A stretch of DNA of 64,000 nucleotides. Source: Cruoricaptor ignavus. Its GTDB lineage: Bacteria > Bacteroidota > Bacteroidia > Flavobacteriales > Weeksellaceae. The position numbers and the translations under genes are program-made. The notes under the pieces were generated by a model, which worked only from the letters and a program-made list of their open reading frames with translations, had not been told where the DNA came from and did no database searches. The DNA lies in assembly GCF_900141665.1 (NCBI RefSeq), contig NZ_FQYI01000003.1, positions 100,001 to 164,000 on the forward strand. The letters are read 5' to 3'. Positions 990 through 56,662 of the stretch are shown in pieces (positions within the stretch are counted from its first letter, which is position 1; the number at the start of each line of letters is the position of its first letter).

Positions 990-1874
990 ATGAAAAATTC
1001 TGCTGTATTTCGGCTGCATCTAATTGTTTTTATCTGGGGCTTTACTGCTGTGCTGGGCAAGCTTATCCAAGCAGGGGCATACCCGCTTACATTCTACAGG
1101 ATGCTATTCGCAGCATTTTTTCTTTTTATTTATTTAAGAATGATTCGCAAAGAATCCATCGCGGTACCTAGGAGGCTGCTGCTGCAGCTCGTTGGGATCG
1201 GTGGGCTGATGGCTGCGCACTGGCTGTGCTTTTTTTATTCTATCAAGGTCTCCAATGTCTCCATCGCGCTGTCGTGCATGTCTCTCTCCACGCTATTTGC
1301 GGCGTTTATTGAACCTATGGTATACCGCAGGCGGATAGACCTTACCGAGTTGCTTTTAGGCATCGTGATCGTTTTTTGCATCGGCTTGATTTTCAGGACG
1401 GAGTTTCACTACAAGGAGGGCATCGTTGTCGGCATTGTATGTGCGCTTCTGGGAACCATATTCTCAGTACTGAACGGGAAAATTTTTGGAAAAACTTCGG
1501 CGGGAAATATTATTTTTTACGAAATATTTGGCGGATGGCTTCTGATGGCGATTTATTTCACGATTTCTGGCGATATTTTTAGTTTTACTGAAATATCCAG
1601 TCGGGATTTAGCGTTAATACTTTTGCTTGCCAGTGTTTTTACCGCATATCCGATGTTTGAATCTGTGAGGCTAATGCAGTACATTTCTCCATTTACCTTA
1701 ATTTTAACTGTAAATTTGGAGCCCGTGTACGGAATTATCCTCGCTTACCTTATCTTTGGAGAACCGGAGCACATGAGTCCCGTGTTCTATCTGGCATCCC
1801 TCGGGATGATTCTGGCGATAGTAGTTAACGGAATCATAAAAGCAAAGCAAAAATCTGTTTCTCAGTATGATTAA
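990..1874 (+). CDS. DMT superfamily (EamA) transporter
   Basis: Inner-membrane drug/metabolite transporter of 294 aa with about ten hydrophobic segments arranged as two EamA repeats. The first begins HLIVFIWGFTAVLGKLI near residue 10 and the second near residue 150 (GIVCALLGTIFSVLNGKIF). The length is normal for the family. EamA proteins export amino acids, metabolites or drugs, and the substrate cannot be read from sequence. A -7 box lies just upstream. The last 8 nt overlap the start of the following barrel gene, so the two are likely co-translated. Confidence 0.88.
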   Translation: MKNSAVFRLHLIVFIWGFTAVLGKLIQAGAYPLTFYRMLFAAFFLFIYLRMIRKESIAVPRRLLLQLVGIGGLMAAHWLCFFYSIKVSNVSIALSCMSLSTLFAAFIEPMVYRRRIDLTELLLGIVIVFCIGLIFRTEFHYKEGIVVGIVCALLGTIFSVLNGKIFGKTSAGNIIFYEIFGGWLLMAIYFTISGDIFSFTEISSRDLALILLLASVFTAYPMFESVRLMQYISPFTLILTVNLEPVYGIILAYLIFGEPEHMSPVFYLASLGMILAIVVNGIIKAKQKSVSQYD

Positions 1875-2949
1875 GAGAATTCTTCCCGTAATATTTGCCT
1901 TCAGTTCAGGCTTTGCACACTCGCAGATTGTCCGGAAATATTCCAATGAATTCCTGAACATCGGCGCGGGAGCACGCGGCCTCGCCATGGGCGGAGCGGT
2001 GATTTCCAATCAGAATGATGCCTATGCCCCGATGTGGAACCCTGCGGGGCTTACCGGCGTGGAGAGCGACTGGCAGGGCGCTGCGATGCACGCGGAATAT
2101 TTTGAATCCATCGCGAAGTACGACTATATCTCCTATGCCAAAGCGCTGGACAACAACGGCGGTGCGCTGGCGCTTTCCTTGGTGCGGCTTGGGATAGATG
2201 ACCTCCTCGATACTACACAAATGATAGATCCGGAGGGGAATATCGATTATGACAAGATTTCAAAGTTCTCGCAGGCAGATTATGCGGGGCTCATTTCGTA
2301 TGCCTTCAGGCTGAACCAGAGGGTGGATGTGGGAGCCACCGCCAAAATCGTTTACCGGAATGTTGGGAAATTTGCCAATGGTTTTGGGTTTGGCTTTGAT
2401 GTCGGTGCCCTGTATCACGCAGATTCAGGCTGGAATTTTGGCGGGATGCTGCGCGACGCCACTACTACGGTAAATTTTTGGAAGATCAATGAGGAAAAGC
2501 TCTCCGCAACTGTAGAAGGCGAAGAATTTAACCCCGCACCAGAAGATAGGCTGGAACTCACAATGCCCAAGCTAAATCTCGGCGCGAGTAGGAATTTTAC
2601 GCTGTCCAGAGATCTATCGCTGCTACCTGAAGTGGGCATCAATGTGGACTTTGCTAAAACCGCGGCGGTAATTTCCACCGACTTTGCCAGCATCACGCCG
2701 TACTTCGGTGCCGAGCTGGTGTACGATAATTTAATTTTCCTACGCGCGGGGGTGAACCGTTTTCAGACCATCACCGATATCGAAAACGAAAAAAGGAAAG
2801 TTTCCTTTCAGCCCAGCGCGGGCATCGGCGTGCGCTACCGCGGCGTCACCGTGGATTATGCCATTTCCAACTCCGGGGTGGGCGGGTCTAATTATTACTC
2901 TAATTTCTTCTCACTGAAACTGGATATGGCGCCTATCCGTGGCAGATGA
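1867..2949 (+). CDS. PorV/PorQ-family outer-membrane beta-barrel protein
   Basis: A 360-aa outer-membrane protein with a short signal peptide (cleavage likely after FAHS, residues 1-19). The conserved entry of the PorV/PorQ family follows: FLNIGAGARGLAMGGA and then AYAPMWNPAGL, about residues 29-60. The rest alternates hydrophobic and polar strands ending in an outer-membrane-type KLDMAPIRGR tail. PorV is the T9SS shuttle that carries cargo to the attachment complex; PorQ is related. This copy shows the N-terminal family signature but not the typical PorV one, so I call only the family. It overlaps the DMT gene by 8 nt and is convergent with the M23 peptidase gene. Confidence 0.75.
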   Translation: MIKRILPVIFAFSSGFAHSQIVRKYSNEFLNIGAGARGLAMGGAVISNQNDAYAPMWNPAGLTGVESDWQGAAMHAEYFESIAKYDYISYAKALDNNGGALALSLVRLGIDDLLDTTQMIDPEGNIDYDKISKFSQADYAGLISYAFRLNQRVDVGATAKIVYRNVGKFANGFGFGFDVGALYHADSGWNFGGMLRDATTTVNFWKINEEKLSATVEGEEFNPAPEDRLELTMPKLNLGASRNFTLSRDLSLLPEVGINVDFAKTAAVISTDFASITPYFGAELVYDNLIFLRAGVNRFQTITDIENEKRKVSFQPSAGIGVRYRGVTVDYAISNSGVGGSNYYSNFFSLKLDMAPIRGR

Positions 2950-2985
2950 TTTAGCGGCAAGTGCCGAGAGCCAAAAAACGAAGAT

Positions 2986-3903
2986 TTAATTCAAAAATAG
3001 TTTCGGGTTTACGGGCGTGCCGTTGCGGTGCACCTCGTAGTGCAGGTGCGGCCCTGTGGATCGCCCATTGTTGCCCGTTTTTGCGATCACTTCGCCTACC
3101 TTTACCTCATCGTTTACCTTGGTAAGGATTTGCGAAAGATGCCCGTATAGCGTAGCGAGCCCGTTTTTGTGGGACACGATTACGCAATTCCCGTAGCCTC
3201 CTTTTACTCCGGCGAAAATTACCGTTCCCTCCGCGGTGCACCTCACATCGCTGCCATAGGGTACCGCGATGTCCATACCTTTGTGAAACTGCATTTGCTC
3301 CGGTTCGGATTCGTCGCTTTTTCCTTCCGCCTTACTTTTTCCTGTGGGCTTTTGCGCTGCTATTTTGCCCGGTATTATGTTCCCCAGGCTATCCCTTTCT
3401 TCAGGGTATATCTCTGTAGGTTTGGCAGGCTCAGGAGCTGGTTTTATATCTTTATCTTTTGGCGGAATTGGATTTTTTCTCAACCCGAAATTTGATGACA
3501 CATACCCATCGGCGGGCATACCCAGCGGGGTTTGCAGCAGTTTTTCCTGAAGCTCGGCAAGGTAGCGGCTGTAGCGCTGGCTGCTCCTGGCGAGGTATAC
3601 TGCGCTGGCGAGGCTGTCCGTGGAGAGTTTCTGTAGTTTTTCATTCGGGATTTTCTTTGCTGCAAAAAGATTGTTAAGACTCCGGAGATATTGATCTACA
3701 TCCGCCAGATCGCTGCGCATCTGCAGAAAATCTACGCTGTCCCGCTCGTTCTTTATGGGCATCAGATTTACTTCGTACAGCTTGCCGCCTGCCTTATCTT
3801 CTGTTTTGAGTTTTAAGATCCACAACGCCTGTGCTATGATAATTGCTAAAAGAATCACTACCGACAGCGGGCTTTTTGCCACTTTTTTAAATATGTCCTT
3901 CAT
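2986..3903 (-). CDS. M23 family metallopeptidase (membrane-anchored, LytM domain)
   Basis: Murein endopeptidase-like protein of 305 aa. Order: a short basic N-terminus, one membrane segment (SPLSVVILLAIIIAQALWIL, residues about 10-29), a periplasmic helical linker, then a C-terminal LytM/M23 domain. Zinc ligands are visible in FHKGMDIAVP (H and D) and in GPHLHYEVH; the fold motif GYGNCVIVSH is also present. The start is ATG 3903 rather than the longer reading from 3945, because the extra 14 residues fall in the promoter region and a -7 box lies 19 nt upstream. It could be an active peptidoglycan hydrolase or a divisome activator. It is divergent from gpsA. Confidence 0.9.
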   Translation of the reverse strand: MKDIFKKVAKSPLSVVILLAIIIAQALWILKLKTEDKAGGKLYEVNLMPIKNERDSVDFLQMRSDLADVDQYLRSLNNLFAAKKIPNEKLQKLSTDSLASAVYLARSSQRYSRYLAELQEKLLQTPLGMPADGYVSSNFGLRKNPIPPKDKDIKPAPEPAKPTEIYPEERDSLGNIIPGKIAAQKPTGKSKAEGKSDESEPEQMQFHKGMDIAVPYGSDVRCTAEGTVIFAGVKGGYGNCVIVSHKNGLATLYGHLSQILTKVNDEVKVGEVIAKTGNNGRSTGPHLHYEVHRNGTPVNPKLFLN

Positions 3904-5047: not shown

Positions 5048-6544
5048 ATGCCACAAAATAAAACTCCAAAACCGCACTACGACGCCGTAATGATCGGCGG
5101 AGGAATAATGAGCGTAACCCTTGCGATGATGCTCCACGAGCTGAACCCGGAGATGAACATAGCCATCTTTGAGAGGCTTGGGAAATTTGCCAAAGAAAGC
5201 TCCGATGCTTGGAACAACGCAGGCACCGGGCACTCCGCTTTTTGTGAGCTGAACTACACCCCGGAGGCGAAGGACGGAAGTATATCAATCTCAAAGGCTG
5301 AGAAAATCGCCGAGCAGTTCGAGGTTTCCAAGCAGTTCTGGGCATACCTCGTGGACAAGGGCTATATCGAAAACCCGGCGGATTTCATCAATACCTGCCC
5401 GCATATGAGCTTGGTTTTTGGTGAGAAAGATTCAGCTTTTTTAAAGAAAAGATTTGAGGCTCTTCAGAAATCTCAGCTTTTCGAAGGAATGGAATTCAGT
5501 AACGAGGCTGAAAAAATCAGAGAATGGGTGCCGCTGATGATGAGCGGAAGAAGCGAGGCAGAAGCCATCGCGGCCACAAGGATGCACCTGGGTACCGATG
5601 TGAATTTTGGCGAACTTACCCGGAAAATGGCGCAGTACCTCTCGCAAACTGGTAAGGTAGAAACCTTTGTTTACCACGAGGCCAAGGATATTACCCCGGA
5701 TCAGAATGGTAAGTGGAGAATCACAATCAAAGACAGGATCAATAAGCACAAGCAGCGTGTTTCCGCAGATTTCCTCTTTATCGGCGCGGGCGGGTATGCC
5801 CTGCCGCTCCTGAATTCTTCGGGAATCAAAGAGTCCCAGGGCTACGGTGGGTTCCCCGTATCCGGGCAGTGGCTGGTATCGTTCAATCAGGATCTGGTAA
5901 AGCAGCACCGCGCAAAAGTCTATACCCAGGCAACGGTGGATGCGCCGCCAATGTCTGTACCGCACCTTGATTTAAGAATAATCGACGGGAGGGAGGCGCT
6001 TCTCTTCGGGCCGTTTGCCGGCTTTTCCACAAAATTCCTCAAGCAGGGCAGCTACCTGGATCTGCCGTTCAGCGTGAATTTTAAAAACCTCGTGCCGATG
6101 CTTGGTGCGGGCATTCACAACATCCCGCTTTCAAAATATCTTGTGGAGCAGGTGGCGATGACCAAATCGCAAAGAATGGCGCACCTTCGCCATTTCATAA
6201 AAGATGCCCGCGATTTTGACTGGGAGCTAAAGATAGCGGGGCAGCGCGTGCAAATCATTAAGGCCGACGAAAAAGATGGCGGAAAACTTGAATTTGGAAC
6301 GGAGGTAGTAGTGAACAAAGCCGGCAATCTGGCATCGCTCCTCGGGGCGTCCCCAGGCGCCTCTACCGCGGTTTTTGCGATGCTTACTGTCATCGAAAAG
6401 TGCTTTCCGGAGCAGGTGAAAGGCGATTGGAAAGAAAAACTTTCTGCGATGATCCCATCTTACGGTAAATCGCTTGCAGAAGATGCCGGCTTGGTAAAAG
6501 AAATAAGAGATTACTCCCACAGCAAGCTTGGTTTGAAGAGATAA
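5048..6544 (+). CDS. mqo: Malate:quinone oxidoreductase
   Basis: FAD-dependent peripheral membrane enzyme that oxidises malate to oxaloacetate and passes electrons to quinone, feeding the TCA cycle and respiratory chain. 498 aa, full length. Dinucleotide-binding motif VMIGGGIMSVTLAMML at about residues 15-30; the family stretch FAKESSDAWNNAGTGHSAFC follows near residue 50. The C-terminal FAD-contact region LLGASPGASTAVFAML is near residue 440. It follows gpsA by 19 nt and is closed by a strong terminator. Confidence 0.96.
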   Translation: MPQNKTPKPHYDAVMIGGGIMSVTLAMMLHELNPEMNIAIFERLGKFAKESSDAWNNAGTGHSAFCELNYTPEAKDGSISISKAEKIAEQFEVSKQFWAYLVDKGYIENPADFINTCPHMSLVFGEKDSAFLKKRFEALQKSQLFEGMEFSNEAEKIREWVPLMMSGRSEAEAIAATRMHLGTDVNFGELTRKMAQYLSQTGKVETFVYHEAKDITPDQNGKWRITIKDRINKHKQRVSADFLFIGAGGYALPLLNSSGIKESQGYGGFPVSGQWLVSFNQDLVKQHRAKVYTQATVDAPPMSVPHLDLRIIDGREALLFGPFAGFSTKFLKQGSYLDLPFSVNFKNLVPMLGAGIHNIPLSKYLVEQVAMTKSQRMAHLRHFIKDARDFDWELKIAGQRVQIIKADEKDGGKLEFGTEVVVNKAGNLASLLGASPGASTAVFAMLTVIEKCFPEQVKGDWKEKLSAMIPSYGKSLAEDAGLVKEIRDYSHSKLGLKR

Positions 6545-50480: not shown

Positions 50481-50512
50481 ATTCCCGAAGCTGAAGTTTC
50501 GGGAATTTTTTT
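50481..50512 (+). terminator. Terminator between the barrel gene and the ABC permease
   Basis: 9-bp stem ATTCCCGAA / TTCGGGAAT with an 8-nt loop, followed by T. The T-run overlaps the stop codon region of the convergent permease. Confidence 0.88.
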
Positions 50513-51806
50513 ATCCCTTAATCCACTTCCAAAGTTCGCGGAAAGTGGCTTTGTTGCCGTACATCAGGATGCCGACACGGTAGATTTTCCCGGCAATCCA
50601 TACCATTAGCAAAGCCGAAATTATCAGCAGGGAAAGCGAAAGAAAGATCTGCCAAAGCGGCACACCGAAAGGAATTCTTGCCACCATTGCAACCGGCGAT
50701 GTGAACGGGATGATGGACAGCCACAATGCCATCGGGCTTTCAGGATTGTTGATAACCGAGAAGCTGCCGTACATCGCTATCATCAGCGGAACCACGGCGA
50801 AAAGTGTGAACTGCTGCGTTTCGGTTTCGTTGTCTACCGCAGAGCCGATGGCTGCATACATCGAGCTGTAAAAAATGTAGCCAAGTAGGAAAAACAGAAT
50901 GAAAACCACGATAATCTGCGGATAATTGAGGCTTAGCAGCGTGTGCGAAATTTCCGTGGCCGTTGCGGTGAAATCTAAATTGGCGGCTTCATCGGCATTC
51001 ATCATTTCGGTTTGCAGTGTGCCGAAACCCTTGTTCAGAAACAGCGCGCCAAGAACCGCCATCGTAATCCACACTAAAAATTGTGAGAGCGCAACGCCTG
51101 TAACGCCGAGGATTTTCCCCATCATCAGCTCGAATGGTTTTACCGATGAAATCAGAATTTCTACTACGCGGTTGTTTTTCTCTTCCAGAACGCTGCGCAT
51201 CACACGCACCCCATAGATGATGATGAACATCAGCGTGGAATACATCAGCAGGAAGCTGAGCCCGGTTTGCACACTCAATTCCAAATCGCTGTTTTCAGAA
51301 TTTTCCGCTACATTGTTGATTTTCAGCGGGAAAGGCTTTTCCAAATTTTCCATTTCGTTTTGGGAAAGCCCTAAATCCTGAATTTTCTTCGTGCGCAAAA
51401 CGCTGCCTAAATCCGCACTGATTTTCGCTCTCGTTTCAAGCCCGATTTTTTTATTCACCAAAAATTCCGTGCCCTGCTCAATTTGCGAAAAATCTTTTGT
51501 GGGAGGGATGATTAAAAGGCCATCCACTTCCGGCATTTCTTTCAGCAAAGATTTTAGCTGGTTTTCGCTCTCCGGATTTACGAAAATGTATTTTACATCG
51601 TCATCAGATTTCAGTTGGCCGCGGAAAATTTCACTCTTATCTATCACATTTACAGTGTGTTGCACTCTGCCGGAATTCATCAGGTAGGCCATAAAGGCAC
51701 CCAGTGCCAAAACCATCAGCGGTGCCAATATCGTGAGGATGATGAAGGATTTTTTCCGAACCTGCGTGAAATACTCCCGTTTTGTAATCAGCCAAATATT
51801 TTTCAT
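50511..51806 (-). CDS. ABC-2 type transporter permease
   Basis: 431 aa, NatB-like. One N-terminal membrane helix (SFIILTILAPLMVLALGAFM), a soluble extracytoplasmic domain of about 150 aa, then five membrane segments from residue 185 (FLLMYSTLMFIIIYGVRVMRS). The first cytoplasmic loop has EEKNNRVVEILISSVKPFELMMGK, typical for this export family. The ATG overlaps the ATPase stop by 4 nt. Substrate unknown; lipid, sodium or peptide export are all possible. Confidence 0.88.
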   Translation of the reverse strand: MKNIWLITKREYFTQVRKKSFIILTILAPLMVLALGAFMAYLMNSGRVQHTVNVIDKSEIFRGQLKSDDDVKYIFVNPESENQLKSLLKEMPEVDGLLIIPPTKDFSQIEQGTEFLVNKKIGLETRAKISADLGSVLRTKKIQDLGLSQNEMENLEKPFPLKINNVAENSENSDLELSVQTGLSFLLMYSTLMFIIIYGVRVMRSVLEEKNNRVVEILISSVKPFELMMGKILGVTGVALSQFLVWITMAVLGALFLNKGFGTLQTEMMNADEAANLDFTATATEISHTLLSLNYPQIIVVFILFFLLGYIFYSSMYAAIGSAVDNETETQQFTLFAVVPLMIAMYGSFSVINNPESPMALWLSIIPFTSPVAMVARIPFGVPLWQIFLSLSLLIISALLMVWIAGKIYRVGILMYGNKATFRELWKWIKG

Positions 51807-52717
51807 AAACTGTTGGTTTTCACTGCATTAATAAAAACTTCATTCATACTCGGAATTTTTTCTTCAAAAGTGCGGATGCTGCCAATCTGCATCAGCTCAT
51901 TTATCAAATTATTCTGTGTGCCGTGATTTTGTAACTCAAACGAAATCAATCCGTTATCGTTTTTCAAATCTTCGATTTTATATTTTTGCTGAAAATTTCT
52001 CAGCTGAAATTCATCTGCATCGCTAAGGACAACGCGGAAAATATTCTGCTTGAATTGCTCACGAACATCGAAAACCTTTCCGTCCAAAATCTTTTTGGAA
52101 TTGCTGATAAGCGCCACGAAATCACACATTTCCTCCACGCTTTCCATTCGGTGTGTCGAAAGGATTATCGTCGTTCCTTCCGCTTTCAGCCGCAGAATTT
52201 CATCCTTGATCAAATTGGCATTCACAGGATCAAAGCCGGAGAAAGGCTCGTCCAAAATCAAAAGTTTCGGCTGGTGCAGCACCGTAACCACGAACTGAAT
52301 TTTCTGCGCCATACCTTTGGAAAGCTCGGCCAGTTTTTTCTTCCACCAATGCTCGATATGCAAACGATCGAACCAGAATTTCGCCCGCTCCAAAGCTTCG
52401 TTTTGCGAAAGGCCTTTCAGCTGCCCGAAATACATCAGCTGCTCACCTACTGCCATATTTTTGTAAAGTCCGCGCTCTTCCGGCATATAGCCTATCTCAT
52501 TGATATGGTGGATATTAAGCGCTTCATCGTTGATAAAAATCCTGCCGGAATCTGGTTTTGTAATCTGGTTTAGAATTCGGATGAAGGAAGTTTTACCCGC
52601 ACCATTCGGACCGAGAAGTCCGTAGATTGAGCCTTGCGGAACGCTGATGCTAAAATCATCGAGCGCGATTTTTTTGCCGGCGTTGTAAGTTTTGGTGATG
52701 TGTTCTGCCCGTAGCAT
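51803..52717 (-). CDS. ABC transporter ATP-binding protein
   Basis: 304 aa. Walker A LLGPNGAGKTSFIR (about residue 37), Q-loop, signature LSKGMAQKIQ in place of LSGGQ, Walker B LLILDEPFSGFDP, and H-loop STHRMESVEE. The extended C-terminus is usual for NatA-type exporters. ATG 52717 gives MLRAEHITKTYNAGKK; a longer reading to 52783 crosses the promoter. It is divergent from the GDGDGTD peptide gene by 184 bp. Confidence 0.92.
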   Translation of the reverse strand: MLRAEHITKTYNAGKKIALDDFSISVPQGSIYGLLGPNGAGKTSFIRILNQITKPDSGRIFINDEALNIHHINEIGYMPEERGLYKNMAVGEQLMYFGQLKGLSQNEALERAKFWFDRLHIEHWWKKKLAELSKGMAQKIQFVVTVLHQPKLLILDEPFSGFDPVNANLIKDEILRLKAEGTTIILSTHRMESVEEMCDFVALISNSKKILDGKVFDVREQFKQNIFRVVLSDADEFQLRNFQQKYKIEDLKNDNGLISFELQNHGTQNNLINELMQIGSIRTFEEKIPSMNEVFINAVKTNSL

Positions 52718-52752
52718 TTCTGCGAAAAGTAAGTGAATTTTGCTAAATTTCA

Positions 52753-52760
52753 CAAAATTA
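52753..52760 (-). promoter_or_regulatory. -7 promoter box for the ABC operon
   Basis: The minus strand reads TAATTTTG (perfect TAnnTTTG), 35 nt before the ATG at 52717. Confidence 0.5.
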
Positions 52761-52799
52761 AAAACAAATTTTATACCCGCCAATTTGCCAGAATTTTAT

Positions 52800-52807
52800 T
52801 AAATTTG
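52800..52807 (+). promoter_or_regulatory. -7 promoter box TAAATTTG upstream of the repeat peptide
   Basis: Perfect TAnnTTTG. If used it gives a leader of about 90 nt before the ATG at 52902. No clean -33 element was found. Confidence 0.4.
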
Positions 52808-52901
52808 TAACTGATGAAATTTTTACCGCAGGAAAATCTCGGTATAAAATTTGCTGGATGAATTAACACCAAACTGAAGTTTAACCATAAAAATTACGAC
52901 A

Positions 52902-53141
52902 ATGATTTCACAAGACGAACAACTGAACCCTGAAGATGTAAAGGTAACGAGAGAAGACGAGATTACGACGCAGAACGCCCTGAACGGCGATGGCGACGGA
53001 ACCGATGGTGATGGTGACGGTACTGATGGGGATGGCGACGGAACGGATGGCACTGACGGTGACGGAACCGATGGCGATGGAGATGGAACGGATGGCGATG
53101 GAGATGGAACGGATGCGGATGGCGACGGAACGGATCTTTAA
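52902..53141 (+). CDS. Acidic GDGDGTD-repeat peptide, candidate modified-peptide precursor
   Basis: 79 aa with no signal peptide and no Cys. Residues 1-28 (MISQDEQLNPEDVKVTREDE then ITTQNALN) look like a leader. Residues 29-79 are eight blocks ending in GTD: five full GDGDGTD, one ADGDGTD, one GDGTD and one GTD, closed by Leu. Codons differ between most blocks, so the protein pattern is kept by selection; only the two blocks at 53073-53114 are identical DNA. A terminator follows, then a JmjC oxygenase and a Fe-S-like protein. Alternatives are a calcium-binding or structural peptide. Confidence 0.75.
   Translation: MISQDEQLNPEDVKVTREDEITTQNALNGDGDGTDGDGDGTDGDGDGTDGTDGDGTDGDGDGTDGDGDGTDADGDGTDL
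53073..53114 (+). repeat. Exact 21-bp tandem duplication inside the repeat peptide gene
   Basis: Two identical 21-nt units (53073-53093 and 53094-53114), each coding one GDGDGTD block; the other blocks use different synonymous codons. Confidence 0.85.
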
Positions 53142-53160
53142 TCTTTTACAATGAAAACTG

Positions 53161-53189
53161 AAGTCGCGGGAATTTTCCGCGGCTTTTTT
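53161..53189 (+). terminator. Terminator between the repeat peptide and the JmjC gene
   Basis: Stem AAGTCGCGG / CCGCGGCTT (one G-U) with a 7-nt loop and a T-tail. It should make the peptide mRNA more abundant than the enzyme mRNA. Confidence 0.88.
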
Positions 53190-53195
53190 ATTCCT

Positions 53196-53203
53196 TATAT
53201 TTG
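53196..53203 (+). promoter_or_regulatory. -7 promoter box TATATTTG for the JmjC gene
   Basis: Perfect TAnnTTTG right after the terminator, 16 nt before the ATG at 53220. Confidence 0.55.
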
Positions 53204-53219
53204 AATAAAATTTAGAAAA

Positions 53220-54407
53220 ATGGAAAATCCTTTTTTCAGCAAAATCGTGGCGCCGCTTTCTGTGGAAGAGTTTTTCGAGAAATACCACGAGAAAGATATG
53301 CTGCACATCCAGCGGAATGATGAGCAATATTATAACAACATCCTGACTTCGCAGGAAATCTCCGACTACCTGGAAAGGCAGGATATTTTCTATCCTTCGG
53401 TGCGAATCGTGAAGAACGGCAGCGAACTTCCGAATTCCCAATACACGAAATCGCAAATCCCAATCGGTTTCCATAAAAAGGACGGCTTGATCGATACGGA
53501 AAAAGCCTTTGCGCTTTTCAACGCTGGAAGTACGCTGGTAATTCAGGCTGGGCAGCGGTATTTCGACCATCTTTCGAAATGCTGCCTGGATTTATCAAAC
53601 AAGTTTGGTTCGCCGGTTCAAGCCAATCTCTACATCACGCCGAATAAATCGGTGGGTTTCAATCCACACTGGGATACGCACGATGTTTTCGTGCTGCAGA
53701 TTGCCGGCACCAAGACCTGGAAACTCTACGGCTTCGAAAACGAATTGCCTACCGTAAACCAAAAATCCAAACTGAAAAATTACCAAAAAGAGCCACTGAA
53801 AACGCTACAGGTAAAGCCAGGCGATTTCCTCTATGTTCCGCGCGGCTTCGTGCACGATGCAATGGCGGACGACGGAATTTCCGCACACATCACCATCGGA
53901 ATTCTCTCGTTCACCTGGATGAGATTCTTCAGCGAACTTCTACCGCAGCTTGAAAACTTCCGGGAATTTCGCGAGGCCGTGCCTTTCTGGAAAGAAGATT
54001 TGACGCCAATCATCGCTGAAAAACTGGATTTGTTCAAGCAAAAAGCAGCGGAGCTTGATACGCAGAAAGTAGTGCGCAAGCTCAATTCCGCACAGAAAAG
54101 AATTCAGCCGCAGCCTTTTAACAATTATTTCGAGAGCCTTTTGAATATCGAAAAAATTTCCGAAAGCACCGTGTTTGCGCTGAACGAAGGCATCATCATC
54201 AGCAGAAAAGAAAATGCGGACGGCATCAGCCTCAGCTTTATGGGTAAAAGCATCTCGCTGCCTCTGCCGATGAAGGATTTTATCGACGGTATTTTTGAAA
54301 AGAAAATTTTCACGGTGAAGGATTTTGAAAGTACACGGCCGGAAAATGCGCTGAGTGCGGCGAAAATTTTGCTGAAAGAAGGTGTGATAAGCATCAAAGA
54401 AATTTAG
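53220..54407 (+). CDS. JmjC/cupin-like 2-oxoglutarate-Fe(II) oxygenase
   Basis: 395 aa soluble protein. The iron facial triad is read as His150 and Asp152 in FNPHWDTHDVF and His212 in VPRGFVHDA, with GTKTWKLYG between them. This is the Cupin_8/JmjC fold used by ribosomal-protein and peptide hydroxylases. Residues about 235-395 form a helical dimer and a winged-helix-like tail, as in ribosomal oxygenases. It follows the GDGDGTD peptide and is 2 nt from the sucrase/ferredoxin-like gene, so hydroxylation of Asp or Thr in the repeat is an attractive inference. A ribosomal oxygenase remains the main alternative. Confidence 0.85.
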   Translation: MENPFFSKIVAPLSVEEFFEKYHEKDMLHIQRNDEQYYNNILTSQEISDYLERQDIFYPSVRIVKNGSELPNSQYTKSQIPIGFHKKDGLIDTEKAFALFNAGSTLVIQAGQRYFDHLSKCCLDLSNKFGSPVQANLYITPNKSVGFNPHWDTHDVFVLQIAGTKTWKLYGFENELPTVNQKSKLKNYQKEPLKTLQVKPGDFLYVPRGFVHDAMADDGISAHITIGILSFTWMRFFSELLPQLENFREFREAVPFWKEDLTPIIAEKLDLFKQKAAELDTQKVVRKLNSAQKRIQPQPFNNYFESLLNIEKISESTVFALNEGIIISRKENADGISLSFMGKSISLPLPMKDFIDGIFEKKIFTVKDFESTRPENALSAAKILLKEGVISIKEI

Positions 54408-54409
54408 GT

Positions 54410-55306
54410 TTGGAAGGGAAGTTATTTTGCGAAACCGTCTTTTTCTGCAGCCAGTTGTCGCGTGATTTTGGCGAAAATCTTCACGGCACGGCATCGCAAT
54501 ACCGCGGTTTTATTTTGGTGGAGTACAGCGAGCCTTTTCCCAAAAAGGCTTTGGATGCAAGGTTGGATGCCAACTGGCTTCAACAGACTAATGCGCTGGC
54601 GAAATCTCTCGGCGCAAAATTAATTTTGATCAGAAATGGACAATCAGACGGTAAGTCGCTGAAAATCATCTATGTAGATGCCTTGCGGAAACGCTGGTGC
54701 CAGTATATTTCGGATGCGCAGACTTACAAGTATTTCAACCTGGCGCTTTTCATTGATGATGATGAAACGCACTGGCACCACGAGCCGTTTTTCATCGTCT
54801 GCACGAACGGAAAGAAGGATAAATGCTGCGCGAAATTTGGGCTGCCAATTTATAGGGCGATGCAAAACAACGGCGATTTTACGGTGTATGAATGCACGCA
54901 TTTTGGGGGCGATAGATATGCAGGAAATGCCGTGCTGATGCCGTTTGGCGTTTATTATGGAAGGCTTCTGCCGGAACAGACTGCAGATTTGATTTCAGCG
55001 ACGAAAGCCCGAAAAATTTTGGCGGATAACTACCGCGGAACTTGCACGATGAATTTCGCAAAACAGTCCGCAGAATATGAACTTCGGAAGTTTCTCGAAG
55101 ATTACCACATCGATTTTCATTTTCAGGTGGTTGCCGAAAGAGTGGAAGGCGATATTTTCGTGTTCGAAGCGCTTACTGATTATGGAATTTTCGACATCAC
55201 GCTCCGGAAATTTTTCCTTCCGGAAAAGCGGCTTCTGACCTGCGCTGCCAAAACGCCCAATCCTGTGGCAAACTACGAACTCATCGGCGTTGTGCAGAAA
55301 TCATAG
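54410..55306 (+). CDS. Sucrase/ferredoxin-like (thioredoxin-fold Fe-S) protein
   Basis: 298 aa. Motifs of the Suc/Fer-like family: FFCSQLSRDFGENLHGTAS (Cys13), FIVCTNGKKDKCCAKFG (Cys131, Cys139, Cys140), and YECTHFGGDRYAGNAVLMP (Cys162, His164). These can hold a 2Fe-2S cluster. The start is TTG 54410, two bases after the JmjC stop; no ATG precedes the first motif. It may pass electrons to, or maturate, the neighbouring oxygenase; that role is inferred from linkage. Confidence 0.85.
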   Translation: MEGKLFCETVFFCSQLSRDFGENLHGTASQYRGFILVEYSEPFPKKALDARLDANWLQQTNALAKSLGAKLILIRNGQSDGKSLKIIYVDALRKRWCQYISDAQTYKYFNLALFIDDDETHWHHEPFFIVCTNGKKDKCCAKFGLPIYRAMQNNGDFTVYECTHFGGDRYAGNAVLMPFGVYYGRLLPEQTADLISATKARKILADNYRGTCTMNFAKQSAEYELRKFLEDYHIDFHFQVVAERVEGDIFVFEALTDYGIFDITLRKFFLPEKRLLTCAAKTPNPVANYELIGVVQKS

Positions 55307-55432
55307 TGCGAATTGGAGATTTTCTCTACCGAAGCGCGCACACCGCCCATACCTTTGGTAAGTCTGGGCAAAATAACACCGCCGTTAGTGTGAAATTAAT
55401 GCTATATTGTACTGCGTTGGTAGACATTTTGC

Positions 55433-55440
55433 TATATTTG
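55433..55440 (+). promoter_or_regulatory. -7 promoter box TATATTTG for the small membrane protein
   Basis: Perfect TAnnTTTG, 4 nt before the ATG at 55445. Confidence 0.55.
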
Positions 55441-55444
55441 TTGT

Positions 55445-55603
55445 ATGAAAAAGCGTTATTTTCTTCTGATAATTTTAGCAGTCGTTCTGCTGTTTATTGC
55501 ACCCCAAGTATTGGCAGGTATCTTTTGTATTGCCTTTACCGTGGTAATGTTATTAGGAATAGCAGGGCTTTTCAAGATTGTTTTTTTTGAAAAAAACTGC
55601 TAA
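55445..55603 (+). CDS. Small two-helix membrane protein
   Basis: 52 aa: MKKRYFLLIILAVVLLFIAP then a second hydrophobic stretch (FTVVMLLGIAGLFKIVFF). Basic start and two likely membrane helices. It has a perfect -7 box directly upstream and ends 12 nt before dusB on the other strand. Function unknown. The 138 bp before it hold no recognised gene. Confidence 0.6.
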   Translation: MKKRYFLLIILAVVLLFIAPQVLAGIFCIAFTVVMLLGIAGLFKIVFFEKNC

Positions 55604-55615
55604 GCGACGAAAATT

Positions 55616-56662
55616 TTAATAAACAGTTCGGCTTGGTTTTCCATTCTCCACATTTCCAGCCATTGTGCCTGTGATAAAAGTTTCTTTGGCATAGAAATCC
55701 TTCACTTCGCCGATTAAATCGTCCATTTCCTGCAGCGTGAAAATTTCGAGAAATCTTTTGCGCCATTCCTTAAAATGCGGTACACCGCGGAAATAATTGC
55801 TGTAGTGCTGCCGCATTTCAATCAGCCCGAGCCTTTCGCCCTTCCATTCTGCAGACCATTCTGCGTGCTGACGAACGGCGGTCAATCGGTCGTTCAAGTT
55901 TGGTTCCGGCATTTTTTCCCCGGTTTTCAAGAAATGCTTGATTTCGTTAAAAATCCACGGATAGCCGATGGCCGCTCTACCAATCATCATTCCATCGCAC
56001 GCATATTTCCTGCGGAATTCTACCACCTTTTCCGGTGAATCGATGTCGCCGTTTCCAAATATCGGGATATCAATGTTCGGGTTCTGTTTGATGCGCGAAA
56101 TATGTTCCCAATCGGCGAAGCCTTTGTACATCTGTGCCCGCGTTCTCGCGTGAATTGTGAGCGCCTTAATGCCGCATTCTTGCAGCCTTTCCGCCACTTC
56201 ATCGATGTTGATGGAATTCGTATCCCAACCAAGCCGCGTTTTCACTGTCACCGGAAGATGTGTGGATTGCACCACGGCCTTCGTAAGGCGCACCATCAGG
56301 TCCACATCCTTCAGAACGCCAGCACCAGCACCTTTGCACACCACCTTTTTCACCGGGCAGCCAAAGTTGATATCCACAATATCCGGCTGCACGGTTTCCA
56401 CGATTTTTGCGGACATTGCCATCGCCTCTTCATCGCCGCCGAAAATCTGAATGCCGATAGGCCTTTCGTAATCGAAGATGTCGAGTTTTTTTCGGGATTT
56501 AATGGCATCACGAATTAAGCCTTCGGACGAGATGAATTCCGAATACATGAGGTCTGCGCCGTGCATTTTGCAGAGCTTTCGGAAAGGCGGATCGCTCACA
56601 TCCTCCATTGGTGCAAGCAGGAAAGGGAAGTCCGGCAATTCTACCGTGCCGATTTTTAGCAT
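55616..56662 (-). CDS. dusB: tRNA-dihydrouridine synthase DusB
   Basis: 348 aa FMN enzyme that reduces U to D in tRNA. Opens with PFLLAPMEDVSDPPFRKLCK. IVDINFGCPVKKVV holds the PVKKV loop, and KGAGAGVLKD is followed by TRLGWDTNS and ALTIHARTR. GNGDIDSPEKV and MIGRAAIGYPWIF, typical of DusB, follow. The first ATG is only 4 nt from a -7 box, implying a leaderless mRNA. Confidence 0.95.
   Translation of the reverse strand: MLKIGTVELPDFPFLLAPMEDVSDPPFRKLCKMHGADLMYSEFISSEGLIRDAIKSRKKLDIFDYERPIGIQIFGGDEEAMAMSAKIVETVQPDIVDINFGCPVKKVVCKGAGAGVLKDVDLMVRLTKAVVQSTHLPVTVKTRLGWDTNSINIDEVAERLQECGIKALTIHARTRAQMYKGFADWEHISRIKQNPNIDIPIFGNGDIDSPEKVVEFRRKYACDGMMIGRAAIGYPWIFNEIKHFLKTGEKMPEPNLNDRLTAVRQHAEWSAEWKGERLGLIEMRQHYSNYFRGVPHFKEWRKRFLEIFTLQEMDDLIGEVKDFYAKETFITGTMAGNVENGKPSRTVY

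Follow-up and report, generated by a model that had tools for sequence, protein, structure and literature searches.

A candidate modified-peptide cassette of an Asp-repeat peptide, a JmjC oxygenase and a Suc/Fer-like protein in Cruoricaptor ignavus and Niabella

Introduction

The JmjC/ROX fold is chiefly familiar from work on ribosomes and histones. Its characterised ribosomal oxygenases (ROX) NO66, MINA53 and YcfD unite a PF08007 catalytic fold, an HxD...H triad and a C-terminal winged helix, and they act on ribosomal proteins. JmjC action on RiPP precursors is also already known, since the JmjC enzymes BipG, BpmG and PbsQ hydroxylate Orn of the precursor in the biphenomycin pathway (PMC12707348, PMC12257519). 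Fish and algae have been described to possess PF08007 JmjC domains joined to an RRE-like domain, and bacterial homologues of these fusions occur in RiPP-like settings (PMC12710340).

Here we analyse a locus of Cruoricaptor ignavus that resembles each of these systems and differs from each. With NO66, MINA53 and YcfD it shares catalytic fold, triad and a predicted winged helix, but its partner, the candidate substrate, is a repeat peptide from the same locus. The likeness to BipG, BpmG and PbsQ lies in a JmjC-type or cupin-type Fe(II)/2OG enzyme and, putatively, side-chain hydroxylation in a ribosomal precursor. Those enzymes, however, act on Orn in a short aromatic core, and the accessible parts of the two papers describe clusters with an MNIO, an arginase, a B12-rSAM enzyme and a protease, and neither Asp repeats nor a Suc/Fer protein (PMC12707348, PMC12257519). 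The fish and algal fusions likewise combine PF08007 with an RRE-like domain, and bacterial homologues of about 30% identity lie next to RiPP genes; in the accessible part of that paper we saw no mention of an Asp-repeat precursor, a leader motif, a Tat/lipoprotein type or a Suc/Fer partner (PMC12710340). In the literature, mostly outside subscription journals, we found no description of Asp-repeat precursors with a JmjC enzyme, of their common leader, of a Tat/lipoprotein branch or of a Suc/Fer partner. The recurrence of the Asp-repeat pairing in at least five bacterial phyla suggests a kind of modified peptide that has not been described before.

Results

The three-gene cassette

The window, that is the whole stretch of 64,000 nucleotides analysed, encodes the peptide, the JmjC_2 oxygenase and the Suc/Fer-like protein as one cassette at 52902-55306 (Table 1). 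An earlier note made from the letters of this DNA had described these genes, and its reading was borne out in several respects. The peptide consists of 28 non-repetitive, leader-like residues followed by eight units ending in GTD, the 395-aa JmjC protein matches PF08007 (E 5e-27) with an intact triad (H150-x-D152...H212), and the third gene, 2 nt after the JmjC stop, matches PF06999 above the family cut-off (E 8e-21).

Table 1. Features of the cassette, with positions in the window
Feature	Position	Strand	Remarks
Candidate Asp-repeat precursor peptide	52902-53141	+	79 aa; leader MISQDEQLNPEDVKVTREDEITTQNALN, core of (GDGDGTD)-type repeats
Hairpin plus T run (terminator or attenuator)	53160-53195	+	between precursor and enzyme genes
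JmjC_2 (PF08007) Fe(II)/2OG oxygenase, ROX-like	53220-54407	+	predicted C-terminal winged-helix/RRE-like domain, ~residues 310-395
Suc/Fer-like (PF06999) thioredoxin-like [2Fe-2S]-type protein	54410-55306	+	TTG start

Tandem Repeats Finder describes the repeat in the peptide gene with a period of 21, 7.0 copies and 80% matches. Full GDGDGTD copies differ in their DNA at synonymous positions only (for example GGCGATGGCGACGGAACCGAT versus GGTGATGGTGACGGTACTGAT), which suggests that it is the protein repeat that is maintained. Used as a search query, the repeat peptide matched nothing but itself, and the DNA pattern of the repeat was found in 0 of 319 other genomes of the family. None of the peptides tested here belongs to a specific Pfam or NCBIfam family, their only matches being to Tat signals or low complexity; short and of low complexity as they are, such peptides are easily overlooked. 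A short precursor with a conserved leader and a variable repetitive core beside an enzyme gene is a RiPP feature, present here by adjacency and conservation. Among the Pfam-scanned genes of 50511-56662 we found neither an ATP-grasp ligase nor a Lan synthetase, the marks of graspetides and lanthipeptides, by the precursor gene.

The hairpin with its T run after the peptide gene, located at 53160-53186 within the feature of Table 1, is terminator-like, as the earlier note had proposed. A similar hairpin occupies the same spot in all eight Niabella loci described below, and hairpins also occur in two Chloroflexota loci; a strict scripted test caught only some of these, and the others were recognised by eye from the sequences. 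The promoter that had been placed before the JmjC gene fared less clearly: a scan for sigma-70-type promoters found none in the gap between peptide and JmjC genes, while a possible Bacteroidota-type promoter, TATATTTG, lies there near 53197.

A divergent ABC-2 exporter next to the cassette had also been noted. We rejected it as a cassette part: it is a family-wide gene, since genomes of the same family that lack the JmjC gene encode orthologues of its ATPase at 68-76% identity, and no relative of the exporter was found near other JmjC loci. Neither a protease nor a dedicated exporter was seen in the cassette; machinery for leader removal and export could be encoded elsewhere. Downstream, between the Suc/Fer gene and dusB, lies a 52-aa hydrophobic ORF without a Pfam match (55445-55600, plus strand).

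Related cassettes in Niabella

All 8 of the 8 Niabella genomes found among the matches listed carry these three genes in an identical order (the JmjC frame is broken in two assemblies, and the Suc/Fer frame in one), so that the cassette is more than a chance arrangement. The Niabella peptides, encoded upstream of the JmjC gene, measure 65-94 aa and carry a leader with ..LQVTR.. and GDGDG[SAG]D repeats.

We found a relative of the JmjC protein in none of 98 other genomes from the family and order, and none of 58 genomes of the window's relatives had a PF06999 member. In the window the cassette is bordered by an ABC ATPase gene and by dusB, and four relatives have these two genes directly next to each other; one of these matches spans only 40 residues. 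In a maximum-likelihood tree the window JmjC protein groups inside Niabella, with support of 97/85 for its grouping with two Niabella sequences and of 100/100 for that with all seven. Base composition was uninformative as a sign of recent transfer, the GC content of the cassette (0.464) being nearly that of the window (0.462). On these sequence comparisons, the simplest reading is that the cassette was gained horizontally, as a unit, from a Niabella-like donor.

The JmjC oxygenase

The predicted structure of the JmjC protein (pLDDT 94) has the ribosomal oxygenases NO66 and MINA53 as its closest folds, and comparisons with the PDB, by structure and by sequence, gave NO66, MINA53 and YcfD as best matches. 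H150, D152, H212 and K165 are invariant in 17 distant homologues and again in a set of 40. From its spacing relative to MINA53 we take K165 to be the 2OG-binding Lys; with this assignment, the protein has the JmjC_2/ROX feature of a JmjC fold with HxD...H and a 2OG-binding Lys.

The last 86 residues (310-395), folded alone, gave a model of pLDDT 90. This model resembles the winged helices of MINA53 and NO66 at Z 9-12 and the RREs of PbtF, TbiB1, PqqD and lasso B1 at Z 7.5-8.2, values that are middling by the tool's own note. Foldseek returned RREs in number, at weak E values of 0.04 and up. Sequence comparison of the domain with PqqD and other RREs gave no match, the likeness being visible in the fold comparison alone. 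ROX winged helices look like RREs, yet we know of none reported as a leader binder. The domain has a predicted ROX winged-helix or RRE-like fold, with leader binding as a putative function.

Recurrence across phyla

A scan at one genome per species yielded at least 570 relatives of the JmjC protein, and we analysed the best 80 of these. Distant JmjC genes (about 30% identity) accompanied by ORFs with a leader and an Asp-rich tail were found in Chloroflexota, Actinomycetota, Acidobacteriota, Pseudomonadota and Bacteroidota, that is in at least five bacterial phyla. A leader motif, L-x-D-[DE]-[DEQ]-I-x-[TV] or more narrowly L-x-D-[DE]-[DE]-I-x-T, is common to the small ORFs, and the Asp-rich tails behind it include DADGTDGTDG, TDSDQATDSDQ, SDVDPTDPVGGG, DPDKKPADPDKK and ADGGADGG; in several groups a Tat motif, often together with a lipobox, stands between leader and tail. 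At least 67 of these best 80 loci have an Asp-rich leader-type peptide nearby, a count that includes Niabella and weaker cases read by hand, and the loci are not independent, Acidobacteriota being over-represented. The earlier note had proposed peptide, JmjC and Suc/Fer as a system, to be doubted if the two enzyme genes occurred mostly without a repeat peptide; with all eight Niabella cassettes complete and a peptide at no fewer than 67 of the best 80 loci, they are mostly accompanied by one.

A 13-column leader HMM, trained without window or Niabella sequences, scored 48 of 8577 ORFs above 9.4 bits, and all 48 lie within 2.6 kb of a JmjC gene (44 loci). Because the training rows were mostly among its own hits, we cross-validated the result. 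With training restricted to the Tat clade, the top six ORFs from the other loci were without exception neighbours of a JmjC gene, against a background of 957 of 3564 ORFs near JmjC, and five of the six were Asp-rich. The window leader, with the motif L-x-P-E-D-V-K-V-T, scores weakly in the general HMM (3.5 bits), so its tie to the wider leader family runs through Niabella.

The remaining loci belong mostly to a cyanobacterial/Flavobacterium clade or stand at contig ends. One of them, a Flavobacterium locus (L062 in our numbering), is an NHLP/proteusin-type cluster in which a tandem array of precursor peptides of the nitrile-hydratase-leader type lies upstream of the JmjC gene. It shares with the present system a JmjC relative beside leader-type peptides, but differs in its nitrile-hydratase-like leader and its separate JmjC clade, and an Asp-repeat peptide was looked for there and not found. 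L081, L043, L056 and L080, cyanobacterial members included, fall in the same clade.

Other arrangements were seen around further relatives. In Streptomyces, short peptides (MDDKKTSLEPDEIEVIPPVSTPDFVIADNDPSDPPIAIADPDPFDPVI and MAKSLDENDITVVRQSG...DNDDFFYSDDDNDNYDGY) are encoded upstream of a cupin/JmjC gene in L025 (S. clavuligerus plasmid, 5793-5939) and L086 (S. hygroscopicus). L007 carries a tandem pair of JmjC-type genes, both on one strand (1183-3334), next to a convergent gene for a 57-aa GG-leader-like peptide (..REQLRKVWGGNDGGTPTNPNDANGG..). In L014 and L021, divergent JmjC relatives have two neighbours, a sulfotransferase-like ORF and an ORF of about 310 aa; this may be a different peptide-modification cluster.

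The candidate target residue

Asp is the sole residue found in all 27 hand-picked tails, with a mean of 26% against 1% for Glu; as candidates were chosen partly by Asp content, the Asp level is biased, whereas the scarcity of Glu was not imposed. Asp also outnumbers Glu in 47 of the 48 HMM-found peptides. Thr, which the earlier note had offered beside Asp as the hydroxylated residue, was rejected: in the Niabella peptides its place is taken by Ser, Ala or Gly and, since only Asp occurs in every tail, Thr is an unlikely target.

The one exception to the excess of Asp over Glu is L037, whose peptide (531-172 nt before the start of the tblastn match, minus strand) has a normal leader, a Tat motif and TDADSSDSE, and then a clearly Glu-rich tail, ESEGAESEGAESEG, unique among the HMM-found peptides. 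This tail is a natural test of Asp specificity.

The Suc/Fer-like protein

The Suc/Fer-like protein has the conserved Cys-rich CCA and HxGGDR motifs, and its gene is the sole PF06999 gene in each of the eight Niabella genomes. A relative adjoins the JmjC gene in Niabella, in Chloroflexota (L034, L035) and in Actinomycetota (L053, L054, L063, L088, L097, L100, L101, L104). In the hand-picked set of 27, Suc/Fer accompanies 11 of 11 non-Tat peptides and 0 of 11 Tat or lipoprotein peptides (Fisher p = 0.0003, ignoring kinship among loci). The partnership claimed for it therefore stands for the Niabella, Chloroflexota and Actinomycetota cassettes and does not extend to the Tat/lipoprotein type. A PDB sequence search with the protein gave no relative. 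To our knowledge, 2OG oxygenases in principle require no ferredoxin; a role as electron donor or iron reductant is plausible.

Discussion

What stands of the earlier reading is a recurring system of peptide, JmjC and Suc/Fer; Thr as target has been given up, and the ABC-2 exporter next door is not a member. We consider it likely that the JmjC enzyme binds the leader of the peptide and hydroxylates the Asp residues of its repeats at C3, with Suc/Fer as a redox accessory and a product that probably binds metal. The cassette would yield a RiPP-like peptide whose N-terminal leader docks on the RRE-like winged helix at the C terminus of the enzyme, and the Fe(II)/2OG centre (H150, D152, H212, with K165 as the probable 2OG ligand) would hydroxylate Asp along the Gly-spaced repeats. 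The hairpin after the precursor gene may serve to keep the precursor in excess of the enzyme, and Suc/Fer may keep the iron ferrous or carry out a second redox step.

Among other residues, ROX enzymes hydroxylate C3 of Arg. C3 hydroxylation by ROX enzymes is likewise described for His (PMC9994133). As these enzymes act on side-chain C3, C3 of Asp is the natural inference, and the product would most likely be a peptide rich in beta-hydroxyaspartate.

A different chemistry on the same peptide is unlikely, if conceivable. Cross-linking, desaturation, decarboxylation or oxidation of the Gly alpha-carbon, perhaps with Suc/Fer electrons for a second step, would accord with the many outcomes that 2OG oxygenases catalyse and with the tie of Suc/Fer to one subtype only, and a 2025 title in the reference list of PMC12710340 concerns alpha-ketoglutarate-dependent dioxygenase-catalysed macrocyclisation in RiPPs. 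Across the tails, however, Asp is invariant while the residues next to it differ (G, S, T, P, A), and the closest characterised folds are hydroxylases.

That the JmjC protein is an ordinary ROX acting on a ribosomal protein, with the peptide as an unrelated neighbour, is very improbable despite its best PDB matches. A ribosomal modifier is not expected to be absent from all sampled relatives or to travel as a cassette with a peptide, and Asp-rich peptides recur beside distant JmjC homologues. We give scarcely any credence to an unmodified peptide, calcium-binding or acidic and disordered, with JmjC and Suc/Fer as a separate redox or iron-linked operon travelling along, for although DGDG motifs resemble calcium-binding loops and the hairpin parts the peptide gene from the enzyme genes, an acidic function alone leaves the preference for Asp over Glu unexplained, and the leader motif is common to exported (Tat) and non-exported peptides, as for an enzyme recognition site.

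For the Asp-hydroxylated product, iron or calcium would be the probable ligand. Beta-hydroxyaspartate chemistry is a metal-binding chemistry, and together with two circumstantial neighbourhoods it suggests such a role. In 13 acidobacterial loci with a JmjC gene and an Asp-repeat lipoprotein (L037, L038, L045, L049, L050, L061, L064, L090, L091, L092, L095, L099, L105), a gene for a PepSY_TM membrane protein lies about 2 kb away; this family is often tied to siderophore reduction. The surroundings of the Tat-type Asp-repeat peptide and the JmjC gene in L042 (Pontivivens insulae, Rhodobacterales) are iron-flavoured: some 2.6-5.8 kb upstream of the JmjC gene lie genes for imelysin (PF09375) and DUF1513, together with a Dps-like ORF. 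Much more tentatively, and with some doubt on our part, the loci may represent a widespread new class of peptides and Tat-lipoproteins in which leader-guided JmjC enzymes make beta-hydroxyaspartate arrays, that is encoded iron or calcium chelators on or outside the cell.

If C3 hydroxylation of the repeat Asp is correct, the JmjC/ROX fold would be connected with a large number of small peptides that lack annotation and have Asp as their invariant residue, and a leader-binding domain would be a possible origin of, or parallel for, the ROX winged helix. The concrete leader motif and the minimal three-gene cassette can be directly expressed and assayed. Metal binding of the poly-beta-hydroxyaspartate type is known mainly from non-ribosomal siderophores; the cassette would suggest a ribosomal route to poly-beta-hydroxyaspartate.
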